A stretch of 26,622 nt of DNA from a virus: the IMG/VR virus record IMGVR_UViG_3300022198_004783, positions 1-26,622 of that record. One strand, given 5' to 3'. Shown here in pieces: positions 972-23,552 of this stretch. How positions within the stretch are numbered: position 1 is the first letter of the stretch; each line of letters opens with the position of its first letter. The notes under the pieces are model-generated. The model made no database searches and was not told where the DNA came from. It worked only from the letters and a program-made list of their open reading frames with translations. A program made the position numbers and the translations under genes.

Positions 972-2135
972 GTGTTCATTGATAACGATTTTCCAAAGAT
1001 CTTGGGTGCGGAACTCTACCGTCCCCACCCTGCTTATATTGCCGAAATGGCTGTGGAGCCCGTGGTTGTCCACGACTTCACTCGCCAGCCTGGTCAAACT
1101 GTTCAGTTAGACCGCTATAAGTTCTGGGGTACTCCTGGTACTAAGGACAGCCGTGAGCGTATTGCCGATCAAACCATCGGTACCGCTAACAGCCGTAACA
1201 TCACCAAGGAAAAAGTCCTGGTGGTGCTTAAGGAATACACTGGTCCTGCAGATCCGGGCGATCCGACCCAGCCCAGTACATTCAAGATTGCTCGTGAAAC
1301 TCTGGTTACCGCCCAGCGCCTGCTGCTGGATACCGGCAACCTGAACATGTTCCACCAGTCGATTGGTAGCCTGACGCTGCTTGACGACTATCGCCGTTGG
1401 CGTGACCGCGTGTTCATCGATGAACTCGCCAAAGCTGAAGCCAATGGTGCCGCTTCTACTTCCCAAGGTGGTTACTACTTTGCTGGTGGTAAGACTAAGA
1501 ATGCTTCTGGTCAAATCACCTACACCAGCAGCGAGTATGACAACGAAGTGCAGCAGTTCCAGGTTCGCACTGACCTCCTGACTGTTGTTAAGGATCTCCG
1601 CAAGCGTAACGTCCCCACCTTTGGTGATGGCCTGTATCGCTGCATCTGCGATCCTACTTTCATGATGCACCTGCGTCGTGATCCTGACTTCCGTGAGATC
1701 GCCCGTTACGCCGGTAATCCTGGCCAAGGCATGTACATGGGTAACCCCATGATGCCTAACAACGCAGGCTTCTTCATGGGTCCCCAGGCTGGTCAGGCTT
1801 ACTTCCTGGCTGGTGAACCTGTGATGCCTACTGGTGTCCAGTTCGAAGGTGTGAAGTTCTTCGAATCCACCAACTTCCCGACCAAGAGTGTTAGCGCATC
1901 TTTCAATAACGGTTCCAGCTATTCCTCTCAGGAAGTGGCCCAAGGTTACTTCTTTGGTCCTCAGGCGATCGGTGTTGGCATCGGTGGCCCTAATGCCCAG
2001 GTGCTCATCAACAACAACGATGATTTCAGCCGTTTCATCATCCTGATCTGGCAACTGTACGCTGGCTTCGAGATCCTGAATAAGGACTTCGTGACTACCG
2101 CATTTAGCTTCGTCCAAGATGACGGCAGCGTCTGA
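972..2135 (+). CDS. major capsid protein
   Basis: 387-aa protein starting at GTG with a strong GGAGG RBS. It begins MFIDNDFPKILGAELYR, followed by an N-arm, then the HDFTRQPGQTVQLDRYKFWG segment (about residues 35-54) that looks like coat-protein beta structure. A helical spine region (RETLVTAQRLLLD) and a C-terminal segment ending in DDGSV follow. There is no signal peptide or membrane segment. Codon use is strongly biased to C/G-ending codons compared with the genes from 3.4 kb on, as expected for the most abundant virion protein. It follows a scaffold-like gene and precedes another highly biased structural gene. Assigned from length, position, composition and resemblance to cyanophage coat proteins; it was not matched to a named family. 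Confidence 0.8.
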   Translation: MFIDNDFPKILGAELYRPHPAYIAEMAVEPVVVHDFTRQPGQTVQLDRYKFWGTPGTKDSRERIADQTIGTANSRNITKEKVLVVLKEYTGPADPGDPTQPSTFKIARETLVTAQRLLLDTGNLNMFHQSIGSLTLLDDYRRWRDRVFIDELAKAEANGAASTSQGGYYFAGGKTKNASGQITYTSSEYDNEVQQFQVRTDLLTVVKDLRKRNVPTFGDGLYRCICDPTFMMHLRRDPDFREIARYAGNPGQGMYMGNPMMPNNAGFFMGPQAGQAYFLAGEPVMPTGVQFEGVKFFESTNFPTKSVSASFNNGSSYSSQEVAQGYFFGPQAIGVGIGGPNAQVLINNNDDFSRFIILIWQLYAGFEILNKDFVTTAFSFVQDDGSV

Positions 2136-2987: not shown

Positions 2988-3012
2988 AGGACCAGATGTA
3001 ATTTCTGGTCCT
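2988..3012 (+). promoter_or_regulatory. 9-bp hairpin abutting the next start codon
   Basis: Perfect inverted repeat AGGACCAGA (2988-2996) and TCTGGTCCT (3004-3012) with a 7-nt loop. It ends one base before the ATG at 3014 and begins 13 nt after the upstream stop. There is no usable RBS between hairpin and ATG; the only SD-like bases (AGGA) are in the left arm. It could attenuate transcription after the two highly expressed structural genes or control initiation of the next gene. Confidence 0.55.
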
Positions 3013-3439: not shown

Positions 3440-3463
3440 ACCCCTGGGAAACCGGGGGTTTTT
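3440..3463 (+). terminator. rho-independent terminator closing the capsid operon
   Basis: ACCCCTGG (3440-3447), GAAA tetraloop (3448-3451), CCGGGGGT (3452-3459), with one G-T pair, followed by a run of T to 3463. GC-rich stem, GNRA loop and T-tract are all present, 16 nt after the HhH stop. Confidence 0.88.
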
Positions 3464-3492
3464 ACTTTTAGAATAAAAAGAAAAGTAGAATA

Positions 3493-4206
3493 ATGTCTGG
3501 CTTGGTTTACCTAGGAAGAATTGCTGGTCCTGGTGAGGACGTATTTCCTACTACCGGTCCACATCTTGACGTGCGAGTGACACCACAATTTGGTGCACAG
3601 AAGGGCAAGAAGATAGATCCTCAAACTGCACGAAGCTTACTCCAAAATGTGCTTGTGGGAGACAAGCGCACTCCCTTGGTGCAGCAACAGGAAGATCAGT
3701 GGAAGTGGAATTTTCCGATCACATCTCCATACGGTCAGCGCTCTGCACCAACCAAAGGTGCCTCTACTTATCACCAAGGACTAGATCTTGGTATCGGTCC
3801 AGAAAACATCGTATATAAAGGTACGGGATCTTTTACCCCAGGCAAGGGGTATGGAACACTAGCAACTACTGATGCACAAGGTAATCCTTACGAGATTCAG
3901 TTTTTACATACAAAACCGGCAGTCGCAAGCTCAGTTGAATCTTCAACGGTCACCCCTGCTACCTCAAGTGATACGTCTTCTAGAACCGAGGATATTCTCA
4001 AGGCGTTTCTCTATGGTGCACAAACAAGAGAAGAAAAAAAACCAGAAAAGACATTCCAACAAGAATTGAAAGAACAATTGATTGGAGGTTTAATTTCGCA
4101 ATCGATGAATCCAATGGGGTTCTTGTCTTCCTATAGTTCTTCCGATCCTTTTCTTGGTGGCAGAGCAGCGGCAACATCTGATTACCTAGGCGGCCTTTTG
4201 GGTTGA
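3493..4206 (+). CDS. M23 (LytM/lysostaphin-type) endopeptidase, apparently circularly permuted
   Basis: 237 aa. The central part carries the M23 signature H-x3-D: YHQGLDLG with H94 and D98, after the usual PITSPYGQR lead-in, and a later FLHT (H139). The motif that normally ends an M23 domain (GPHLHFEV...DP) instead appears near the N-terminus as TTGPHLDVRV (H24, D26) followed by KKIDP (to residue 43), with Asp replacing the second His. The order therefore looks circularly permuted. Residues about 145-237 are a Ser/Thr-rich linker, a charged helix and a Gly/Ser tail. M23 enzymes cut peptidoglycan cross-bridges using zinc; within a virion operon this is most likely an entry enzyme. First gene after the terminator. 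Start at ATG 3493 with only weak A/G-rich upstream sequence. Confidence 0.75.
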   Translation: MSGLVYLGRIAGPGEDVFPTTGPHLDVRVTPQFGAQKGKKIDPQTARSLLQNVLVGDKRTPLVQQQEDQWKWNFPITSPYGQRSAPTKGASTYHQGLDLGIGPENIVYKGTGSFTPGKGYGTLATTDAQGNPYEIQFLHTKPAVASSVESSTVTPATSSDTSSRTEDILKAFLYGAQTREEKKPEKTFQQELKEQLIGGLISQSMNPMGFLSSYSSSDPFLGGRAAATSDYLGGLLG

Positions 4207-4245: not shown

Positions 4246-4707
4246 GTGCAGCTTTCTGACTTCGATAAAAGTAGAGTCAGGTATCATCTGGGATACTTCA
4301 CTGTTTCTGTACCAGCGGGTGATTATGCTCGTCTGGAAGAAGCAATGAATACGGTTCCGGATTCTTACTTCTATGACAAAATCTCTATTCAGATCGGACG
4401 TTGTGATACGGCCGAAAAGAAAACCGAGGTTGCGACATCGCCTTCTACCCGACTTGAAAGCATTGCTGGTGACGTTGATCGTACGATTCGTTCCAGTAAT
4501 GCCAAGGAGGCACTTAAGGTTTGGGACGAGATTTATCTCTACGAAACCAACCGTCTAGCCGGTATCCTTTACGTTCCTAACTACAAGGATCCGTTCCAGG
4601 CCAGATATCGTTACGAACGTTCTGGCGCTGAATTTATCCAGAGTCTTCCAGGTCCTGCAGATACGGCTGTGGGATCACGCATTTATTTACATGAGGTTTG
4701 GAGGTAA
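4246..4707 (+). CDS. unrecognised virion-module protein
   Basis: 153 aa from a GTG start (MQLSDFDKSRVRYHLGY) with an AAGGGG RBS. Soluble, mixed alpha/beta, with many Tyr and Arg residues (YKDPFQARYRYERSGAEF) and no membrane segment or known catalytic motif. The size, and the position in the structural operon ahead of an alanine-rich protein, would suit a head-completion, neck or tail-connector protein, but I do not recognise it. It ends 2 nt before the next gene's ATG, with the next RBS inside its 3' end. Confidence 0.6.
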   Translation: MQLSDFDKSRVRYHLGYFTVSVPAGDYARLEEAMNTVPDSYFYDKISIQIGRCDTAEKKTEVATSPSTRLESIAGDVDRTIRSSNAKEALKVWDEIYLYETNRLAGILYVPNYKDPFQARYRYERSGAEFIQSLPGPADTAVGSRIYLHEVWR

Positions 4708-13315: not shown

Positions 13316-13329
13316 AAAGTATGTATGAT
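13300..13329 (+). promoter_or_regulatory. possible promoter of the GH24 lysozyme
   Basis: TGGACA (13300-13305, one mismatch from TTGACA), 18-nt spacer, TATGAT (13324-13329, one mismatch from TATAAT). The predicted transcription start falls in the palindrome at 13331-13352, which would then be an operator or leader hairpin. Confidence 0.42.
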
Positions 13330-13330
13330 T

Positions 13331-13352
13331 GAGAGTAATAATAGATACTCTC
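13331..13352 (+). promoter_or_regulatory. palindrome directly before the lysozyme ATG
   Basis: Perfect 7-bp inverted repeat GAGAGTA (13331-13337) and TACTCTC (13346-13352) with an 8-nt AT-rich loop, abutting ATG 13353. No RBS lies between them. It is a candidate operator, because it overlaps the predicted start site, or an RNA hairpin controlling translation. A comparable palindrome precedes the other lysin gene at 22511-22533. Confidence 0.45.
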
Positions 13353-14018
13353 ATGTCGGATCTTTCGCGTGCTGTTAATCTGATTCGTAAATACGAAGGG
13401 TTTAACGAAAAAGCATATCCAGATCCGTACTCAGGTGGAGAACCATACACCATCGGGTTTGGGACTCAGTTCTATCCCGATGGTTCTCCCGTCAAGCAAG
13501 GTCAGTGCTGCAGCCAAGAGAAGGCACTGGAGTATTTATTTCACGAAGTCAACGTTATTGAGTCCCAGCTTCTGCGTTTAAACTTAGGACTTGATGACTG
13601 TATGCGCCAAGCTCTTGTTTCTTTTATCCATTCAATTGGATGGGAACCTTTCCTTTACAGCCGTATGATTGACTGTCTTGAAACTGAAGACCTGTCAGGA
13701 GCAACAGAAGAAATTGGCCGTTGGATTTTTGATCAAGACCATAAAGTCATTGGTAGCCTGCTTGATCGTCGTCGAGAAGAGGTGAATCTATTCCTGCAGG
13801 AGGTTGACGCAAACCCCTGGTCCTCTACAGAAGTCCTCTTGACGGCATTCAGGAATTACAGCGCTGCTTCTCATGAAGTCCGGGCAATCCGAAAACTGGA
13901 AGAACAGATCAATCCTTATATTCTGTCAGAGTTTGCTAACGACTTTAAGATTGACGAAAATCCCTGGGTTGATTTTAGAGATGAGAGTCTAGATTCTTTG
14001 TTCAAAGTGTACGATTAG
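13353..14018 (+). CDS. GH24 lysozyme (endolysin-type muramidase)
   Basis: 221 aa (MSDLSRAVNLIRKYEGFNEK). Catalytic residues fit the phage T4-type pattern: E15 in KYEGF, D24 in AYPDPYS and T33 in YTIGFGT, with a 3-residue insertion between D and T compared with T4 lysozyme. The GFGTQFYPDGSPV lobe and the AxxSFxxxxG helix region (ALVSFIHSIGWEPF) follow. The last ~70 residues are a helical extension of unknown role. ATG 13353 is preferred to TTG 13329, because the region between holds the palindrome. It cleaves the glycan backbone of peptidoglycan. It lacks a signal peptide, so release would need a holin. Second of four wall hydrolases in the window if counted by lysis relevance. Confidence 0.85.
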   Translation: MSDLSRAVNLIRKYEGFNEKAYPDPYSGGEPYTIGFGTQFYPDGSPVKQGQCCSQEKALEYLFHEVNVIESQLLRLNLGLDDCMRQALVSFIHSIGWEPFLYSRMIDCLETEDLSGATEEIGRWIFDQDHKVIGSLLDRRREEVNLFLQEVDANPWSSTEVLLTAFRNYSAASHEVRAIRKLEEQINPYILSEFANDFKIDENPWVDFRDESLDSLFKVYD

Positions 14019-22541: not shown

Positions 22542-23552
22542 ATGTCAATCAAACTCACAGACGCCGCAAGGTTTTTTAACGAAGAACCGCATCAAATCGA
22601 TGCGTTGGAGTGGCTTCAGGCTCAGCTCACTGCTGATGTCCTGGATCTTTTTGCTGAGAAATATCGAAACAAACCAAGACCTGCTTTAGCTATAGACAAC
22701 ACTTGGGACGGTGTTCTTGCAGCAGCTAAAACAGCTGGTGCTAAATGGCCTGAATGTGTTGCGGCACAGTGGGCACTCGAATCGGGATGGGGTCAACACA
22801 CATCTGGTAAGAATAATTACTTTGGATTGAAAGGATCTGGTTCTACGGTCAGCACCCAAGAATTCATCAATGGTCAATGGGTCACGATCAAGGCTGGATT
22901 CCTTGATTTTCCTGATTTACAAACATGTGCTTGCTACCTCGTTGATCGCTGGTATAAAGACTTTGGGCGCTTCAAAGGTGTTAATAGAGCAACCAGCAGG
23001 AATGAATGCGCTCGACTTTTGGTTAAGGAAAGTTACGCAACTGACCCTGACTATGCAACAAAATTAATTCAGATCATGGATCGTCAACTTCAAAACATTG
23101 GAGAGAAAGAAGATCCCAACCCACACAACAATAACTTGAACCCTTGGAGCCCATTCACCTATAAGATCACACCTAATATCACATATGGTGAGATTTGTTT
23201 AAACCAAGAAAAGCGAAGGTTTACCAAGCAATATCAATGCGACACAGCAAAAGAACTATGTTTATTCCTAGAAAAAGTCCGTAAACAGTTTGGTAACAAG
23301 CCAATCATTATCACTAGCGGTTCTCGTCCAGAACCCATCAATACTCAAGTAAACGGCGCAAAGAACAGTGAACATACCTACAACGCACCGTCTAAAGGCG
23401 CGATTGATTTTTATATCCAGGGTGTTGATATCTATAAGGTGCAAGACTGGTGCGATAAACATTGGCCTTATTCGTTAGGATATGGCGCACCCAAGGGATT
23501 CACGCATCTTGGCATTAGGGAAGGAAAACCACGCGTTCGCTGGGTCTACTGA
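22542..23552 (+). CDS. two-domain endolysin: GH73 glucosaminidase plus M15 peptidase
   Basis: 336 aa. Residues about 50-185 are a FlgJ/GH73-type glucosaminidase: VAAQWALESGWGQH (catalytic E80), then NNYFGLKG (91-98) and the ATDPDYATKLIQIM helix. Residues about 205-336 are a D-Ala-D-Ala carboxypeptidase-like M15 domain: IIITSGSRPEP, SEHTYNAPSKGAIDFY (zinc ligands H and D, with an insertion between them) and FTHLGIR. The first domain cuts glycan strands and the second cuts peptide stems. There is no signal peptide, so release depends on a holin; the holin-like gene is close by at 23716-23877 on the other strand. Preceded by a palindrome and no clear RBS. Confidence 0.87.
   Translation: MSIKLTDAARFFNEEPHQIDALEWLQAQLTADVLDLFAEKYRNKPRPALAIDNTWDGVLAAAKTAGAKWPECVAAQWALESGWGQHTSGKNNYFGLKGSGSTVSTQEFINGQWVTIKAGFLDFPDLQTCACYLVDRWYKDFGRFKGVNRATSRNECARLLVKESYATDPDYATKLIQIMDRQLQNIGEKEDPNPHNNNLNPWSPFTYKITPNITYGEICLNQEKRRFTKQYQCDTAKELCLFLEKVRKQFGNKPIIITSGSRPEPINTQVNGAKNSEHTYNAPSKGAIDFYIQGVDIYKVQDWCDKHWPYSLGYGAPKGFTHLGIREGKPRVRWVY

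Follow-up and report, generated by a model that had tools for sequence, protein, structure and literature searches.

In an S-EIV1-like contig, does the third gene after that for the major head protein encode an M23 peptidase with a circularly permuted domain? The window analysed, a stretch of 26,622 nucleotides, is a virus record syntenic with Synechococcus phage S-EIV1. An earlier note, based on the sequence of the window only, had claimed that the motif which closes an ordinary M23 domain is found near the N-terminus of the gene product, ahead of the other catalytic motifs and with an Asp in the place of a His. Here, this claim is followed up by profile comparison, structure prediction and comparison of related viral loci. 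The coordinates of the features are given in Table 1.

Table 1. Features of the peptidase gene and its surroundings in the window
Feature	Position	Strand	Remarks
Major head protein gene	972-2135	+	phrog_1357, E 5.6e-17
Helix-hairpin-helix neighbour, 136 aa	3014-3424	+	HHH_3 E 2.8e-05, below Pfam cut-off
Terminator-like hairpin and T-run	3440-3469	+	just 5' of the peptidase gene; consensus match only
Probable circularly permuted M23 (LytM-fold) peptidase gene	3493-4206	+	237 aa; domain at residues 1-150, then low-confidence, partly helical tail
Canonical M23 C-terminal equivalent, residues 4-43	3502-3621	+	profile match over 18-43; strand 4-10 by homologue alignment and model
Linker of the permuted form, residues 44-76	3622-3720	+	helix 43-50, hairpin 63-72 (model)
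Canonical M23 N-terminal equivalent, residues 77-142	3721-3918	+	C-half profile match; invariant residues
C-terminal tail, residues 151-237	3943-4203	+	low-confidence helices, pLDDT 39-59 (AlphaFold2)
phrog_29158 neighbour, function unknown	4246-4707	+	E 9.7e-78

Motif order in the open reading frame

Translation of the open reading frame confirmed the motif order, with TGPHLDVRV (residues 21-29) and KKIDP (39-43) preceding HQGLD (94-98) and FLH (137-139); GPHLD (H24, D26) is thus found ahead of HxxxD (H94/D98) and LH (H139). The resulting order, HxD ... Hx3D ... H, differs from the Hx3D ... H ... HxH of the M23 family. A canonical M23 domain hidden upstream or in another frame was ruled out, since an in-frame stop is present a few codons 5' of the ATG (identical copy L001), leaving no room 5' of it for a hidden front half, and the 237 aa protein has no HLH motif beyond H139.

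The segment equivalent to the canonical C-terminus consists of a strand (residues 4-10) followed by TTGPHLDVRV...KKIDP. In the alignment, H24 is the first His of HxH and D26 occupies the place of the second, zinc-ligand His. The earlier note had placed this segment at residues 22-43; the segment is indeed present, but it probably starts at about residue 4, because the predicted strand 4-10 matches the position of the canonical 'V..Gq.Ig' strand in Acinetobacter and Moraxella homologues. The assignment of this strand is based on the Acinetobacter form, in which RLVGISGNSGIGTGAHLD resembles the canonical ..IGy.GnTG.STGPHLH. The segment equivalent to the canonical N-terminus carries S78/G81/R83, GAS (89-91), H94xxxD98, G121 and L138-H139. 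The tail that follows the domain is possibly a region for virion anchoring.

Comparison with canonical and permuted M23 profiles

In searches with PF01551 and NCBIfam models no match above cut-off was obtained for the focal protein, and PF01551 did not match in the S-EIV1 genome. The link to M23 was made through a domain of an Acinetobacter tape-measure protein found by tblastn, of which PF01551 picks up the front half only.

Profiles were built from a set of 65 canonical domains, the majority retrieved via similarity to the front part only, and divided into segment A (from S..G.R to the catalytic His) and segment B (from there to HLH..NP), which were used separately and joined as A+B and B+A. 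For the half-domain tests the alignment of the cyanophage family (A6, 36 sequences) was cut in two. The cyanophage N-half scored 38.8 against segment B and 8.4 against segment A, with a probability of 95.3 for the former and residues 18-43 aligned over 21 columns; after shuffling of the B columns (n = 200) this half reached 9.2±2.0, with a maximum of 19.3. The C-half behaved in the opposite way, scoring 105.7 against segment A and 12.4 against segment B. For the whole cyanophage domain, the permuted profile (B+A) scored 127.0 and the canonical one (A+B) 106.1, and shuffling of the B columns (n = 100) gave 106.3±1.35 (maximum 115.5). Similarly, the Acinetobacter/Moraxella set scored 156.4 with the permuted profile versus 127.7 with the canonical order, and 123.4±1.7 (maximum 134.2) after shuffling. 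The comparison with normal and permuted profiles that the earlier note had proposed therefore favours the permuted profile for both sets. The motif order is also retained across relatives (93 permuted domains detected), which together with the distance of the N-half score from the 200 shuffles shows that it did not arise by chance.

The Acinetobacter tape-measure domain matches solved M23 structures (3slu, 6muk and lysostaphin) in two segments of swapped order; for 3slu, query residues 47-121 correspond to 221-294 and residues 6-35 to 310-337. This swapped match recurs with a family profile (E 1.4e-8). The profile of the cyanophage family gives the same swapped pair to 3slu with an E of 0.024, the second segment alone being insignificant.

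Structure prediction

AlphaFold2 was run with 44 relatives. The full-length model had a pLDDT of approximately 88-98 over residues 1-150 and a pTM of 0.62, close to the 0.63 (150/237) that would be expected if residues 1-150 formed one rigid unit and the rest contributed nothing. Residues 1-151 alone were predicted as a single compact domain (pLDDT 95.0, pTM 0.90), which speaks against residues 22-43 being a separate domain; these residues would pack beside H94, D98 and H139. The strands are predicted at 4-10, 25-31, 97-99, 105-109, 112-116, 120-126 and 132-138, positions that are consistent with the strands of M23 in circular order. Foldseek searches with the AlphaFold2 models against the PDB and BFVD gave no significant match, the unpermuted stretch included; a sequential aligner performs poorly with permuted folds. 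The single-domain model, the half- and whole-domain profiles and the swapped two-segment matches of the closest homologues all support circular permutation of the domain.

Active site and the His-to-Asp change

In M23 enzymes the zinc ligands are the Hx3D residues His and Asp plus the second His of HxH. Activation of water is aided by the other His of HxH together with a His located some 30 residues before it, and the intermediate is stabilised by a Tyr or Arg (PMC9662197). Among the 44 relatives the invariant positions are T21, H24, L25, D26, R28, S78, G81, R83, GAS, H94, D98, L138 and H139. The Hx3D zinc motif is thus conserved as H94/D98, and the additional catalytic His and the oxyanion-stabilising Arg as H139 and R83, as assigned by alignment to canonical domains and PMC9662197. 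In the place of HxH, all members examined have HxD (H24, D26). The replacement at D26 that had been pointed out previously is therefore real and also invariant; it might, as the earlier note suggested, affect the geometry of zinc binding or catalysis. The metal would then be held by two Asp and a single His.

In a subgroup of loci (L282, L283, L286, L287, L294 and similar ones) HxG[IL]D is replaced by HxGQD or HQAHD, with retention of the metal-binding H and D and loss of the hydrophobic residue before the Asp.

The frequency of the Asp was judged only on scans with patterns lacking HLD. It was present in 24/24 and 8/8 permuted domains versus 1 of 62 canonical domains; eight more phage M23 domains, picked for diversity, had His at this position. 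The single canonical case is an actinobacterial domain (L192) with HLD in the sequence STGPHLDFRI. Judged by these sequences the Asp is tied to the permuted form, though not exclusive to it. A joint change from H-x-E to D-x-R was considered, as D26 and R28 are both invariant and L192 reads HLDFR, and was rejected since one canonical case is too few.

Gene neighbourhood

Identity to S-EIV1 was 87% for the head protein, 71-87% for the nearest neighbours and 54% for the focal protein. Of 183 related viral loci, 170 have the head protein gene, 178 the helix-hairpin-helix gene and 180 the phrog_29158 gene, always on the same strand. That the peptidase gene is linked to the gene for the major head protein supports its earlier assignment to a virion operon.

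Six terminator-like sites were found, versus 1.7±1.4 in shuffled sequences; at the one before the peptidase gene, the hairpin itself spans 3440-3459. A perfect 9-bp inverted repeat (AGGACCAGA..TCTGGTCCT) is present in the intergenic region at 2988-3012, with a terminator-like score on both strands. Elsewhere in the window, a probable endolysin (22542-23552, + strand) combines a glucosaminidase domain with an M15 peptidase domain C-terminal to it, and a separate lysozyme-like gene is located at 13329-14018. The permuted M23 is therefore not necessarily required for lysis.

In the GenBank record of S-EIV1 (KJ410740.1), the homologue of the head gene (approximately 60784-62010, + strand, 87% identical; L026:17406-18632) lacks the corresponding annotation. 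A hypothetical gene on the minus strand (AHV82227.1) overlies it, and the + strand call covers only its 3' part.

Relatives and origin of the permuted form

The direct orthologue in S-EIV1, AHV82231.1, is 53.6% identical over its full length and has the same gene neighbourhood. In GenBank it is already labelled 'peptidase M23 family'; the feature table of this record mentions neither a permutation nor an Asp change.

The permuted domain was found in two settings, either as a stand-alone protein of the head module (S-EIV1 lineage) or as a domain inside a tape-measure or tail protein in phages of Acinetobacter and Moraxella. The C-terminal/internal domain of the Acinetobacter Vieuvirus tape measure (Ab105-2phi, ASK85823.1) and that of the Moraxella Mcat19 tail protein (AKI27805.1) share the permuted order, the HLD and the catalytic set with the focal protein, but differ in being embedded in longer proteins, in having a shorter linker and in being only about 30% identical to the focal domain. 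In Moraxella phages Mcat18 (KR093642.1) and Mcat21 (KR093645.1), the permuted domain matched as two pieces in two annotated tail protein genes, which suggests a frameshift or a split gene. ACG-2014f, Sf-FP1, Prochlorococcus phage Syn1, Leptolyngbya phages and actinophages were rejected as permuted relatives, as the M23 domains read out were canonical.

Three scans yielded 234, 418 and 351 viral contigs with relatives of the permuted domain; these are overlapping sets, of which part was read out, and the patterns contained HLD. The description of the enzyme as uncommon consequently needs qualification, since its presence in hundreds of viral contigs makes it widespread among phages.

In a first tree, on circularly aligned columns, the permuted domains formed one group (SH-aLRT 90). 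A careful tree without the columns of D26 and R28 splits them; a single group was not rejected by the AU test (p-AU 0.344), and long branches play a part. By these sequence trees, the permutation may have arisen in one event or in two, neither view being rejected.

Proposed function and alternative explanations

The product of the gene is probably an M23 metallopeptidase domain in circularly permuted form, which would be carried by the virion of S-EIV1-lineage cyanophages. The strand pair that closes an ordinary M23 domain (V..Gq.Ig and TGPHLHFEv..vNP) would have been relocated ahead of the start of the domain and the old termini joined via the linker, so that a single chain rebuilds the same active-site groove in the beta-sheet. 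In the expected site, H94, D98 and D26 would bind the metal, H24 and H139 would activate water and R83 would stabilise the intermediate. Most likely the enzyme is a virion-associated endopeptidase, which would cleave the peptides that cross-link cyanobacterial peptidoglycan as the DNA enters the cell.

The conservation of the catalytic positions in 44 sequences argues for an active enzyme. We consider it unlikely that the fold is kept without peptidase activity and has a role in binding or activation, as in EnvC and NlpD, which are degenerate LytM factors. In that case the Asp, which replaces the zinc-ligand His in all members examined, would mark the loss of normal zinc chemistry, but Asp is a normal zinc ligand and, unlike in the degenerate LytM factors, R83, H94, D98, H139 and H24 are all invariant.

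Another substrate for a permuted M23 enzyme appears improbable as well. The gene adjoins head genes and has an altered ligand set, which would fit a head-maturation protease or, by the precedent of the lipid-acting permuted NlpC/P60 enzymes, a substrate other than peptidoglycan. However, the homologous domain is found in tape-measure and tail proteins, as is typical for virion enzymes that cut the cell wall, and capsid proteases, which come from other families, usually have their genes 5' of that for the major head protein.

A domain-swapped assembly, in which residues 4-43 of one subunit would fill in the groove of the next one in the virion with no permutation within the chain, is very improbable. 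Phage virion proteins are often oligomeric and 33 linker residues separate the two parts, but the AlphaFold2 monomer is a single confident domain and the Acinetobacter and Moraxella versions, which lie within long tape-measure and tail chains, have a much shorter linker in the alignment. That the N-terminal GPHLD is a chance motif unrelated to M23, to which the short match and the lack of a Foldseek match might point, can be practically dismissed, being refuted at sequence level by the shuffle tests and contradicted by the retained DP/NP motif and by the segment pairs matched in swapped order, which are seen in two separate groups of proteins, though weakly in the cyanophage family.

A virion-borne permuted M23 peptidase would give a much-studied family of cell-wall peptidases a natural circular permutation coupled to a change of metal ligand. 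The failure of standard models to detect these enzymes would then be explained. The finding also indicates which protein the S-EIV1 lineage of cyanophages probably uses for entry, and which part of the tape-measure proteins probably does so in Acinetobacter and Moraxella phages. More tentatively, phages may possess a permuted branch of M23, evolved once or more, whose metal site consists of one His and two Asp. Unrelated virions would employ it (those of S-EIV1-lineage cyanophages, and the tape measures of Acinetobacter and Moraxella phages), and its preferred metal or its substrate would not be that of ordinary M23, as is the case for permuted NlpC/P60 enzymes.

Comparison with known systems

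With the M23 family (LytM/lysostaphin-type, PF01551) the focal protein has in common Hx3D, the upstream S..G.R, a His about 30 residues before HxH in circular order, and the TGxHL motif followed by NP/DP. It differs in that the segments are swapped, the second His of HxH is an Asp and the protein is below Pfam detection. A literature search that covered few subscription papers found no paper describing a permuted M23, and an earlier description may exist. Like the proposed enzyme, phi29 gp13 and other virion-associated M23 enzymes are peptidoglycan endopeptidases acting at entry (PMC9662197), but these are presented as ordinary M23 members, and 'permut' does not occur in that 2022 review. The permuted NlpC/P60 enzymes (LRAT/YaeF, Tox-Act1) likewise form a circularly permuted branch of a cell-wall peptidase family; they differ in their unrelated, papain-like fold and in that the permuted members act on lipids. 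Whether permutation alters the metal or the substrate in M23 also, as in the NlpC/P60 enzymes, becomes a testable question.
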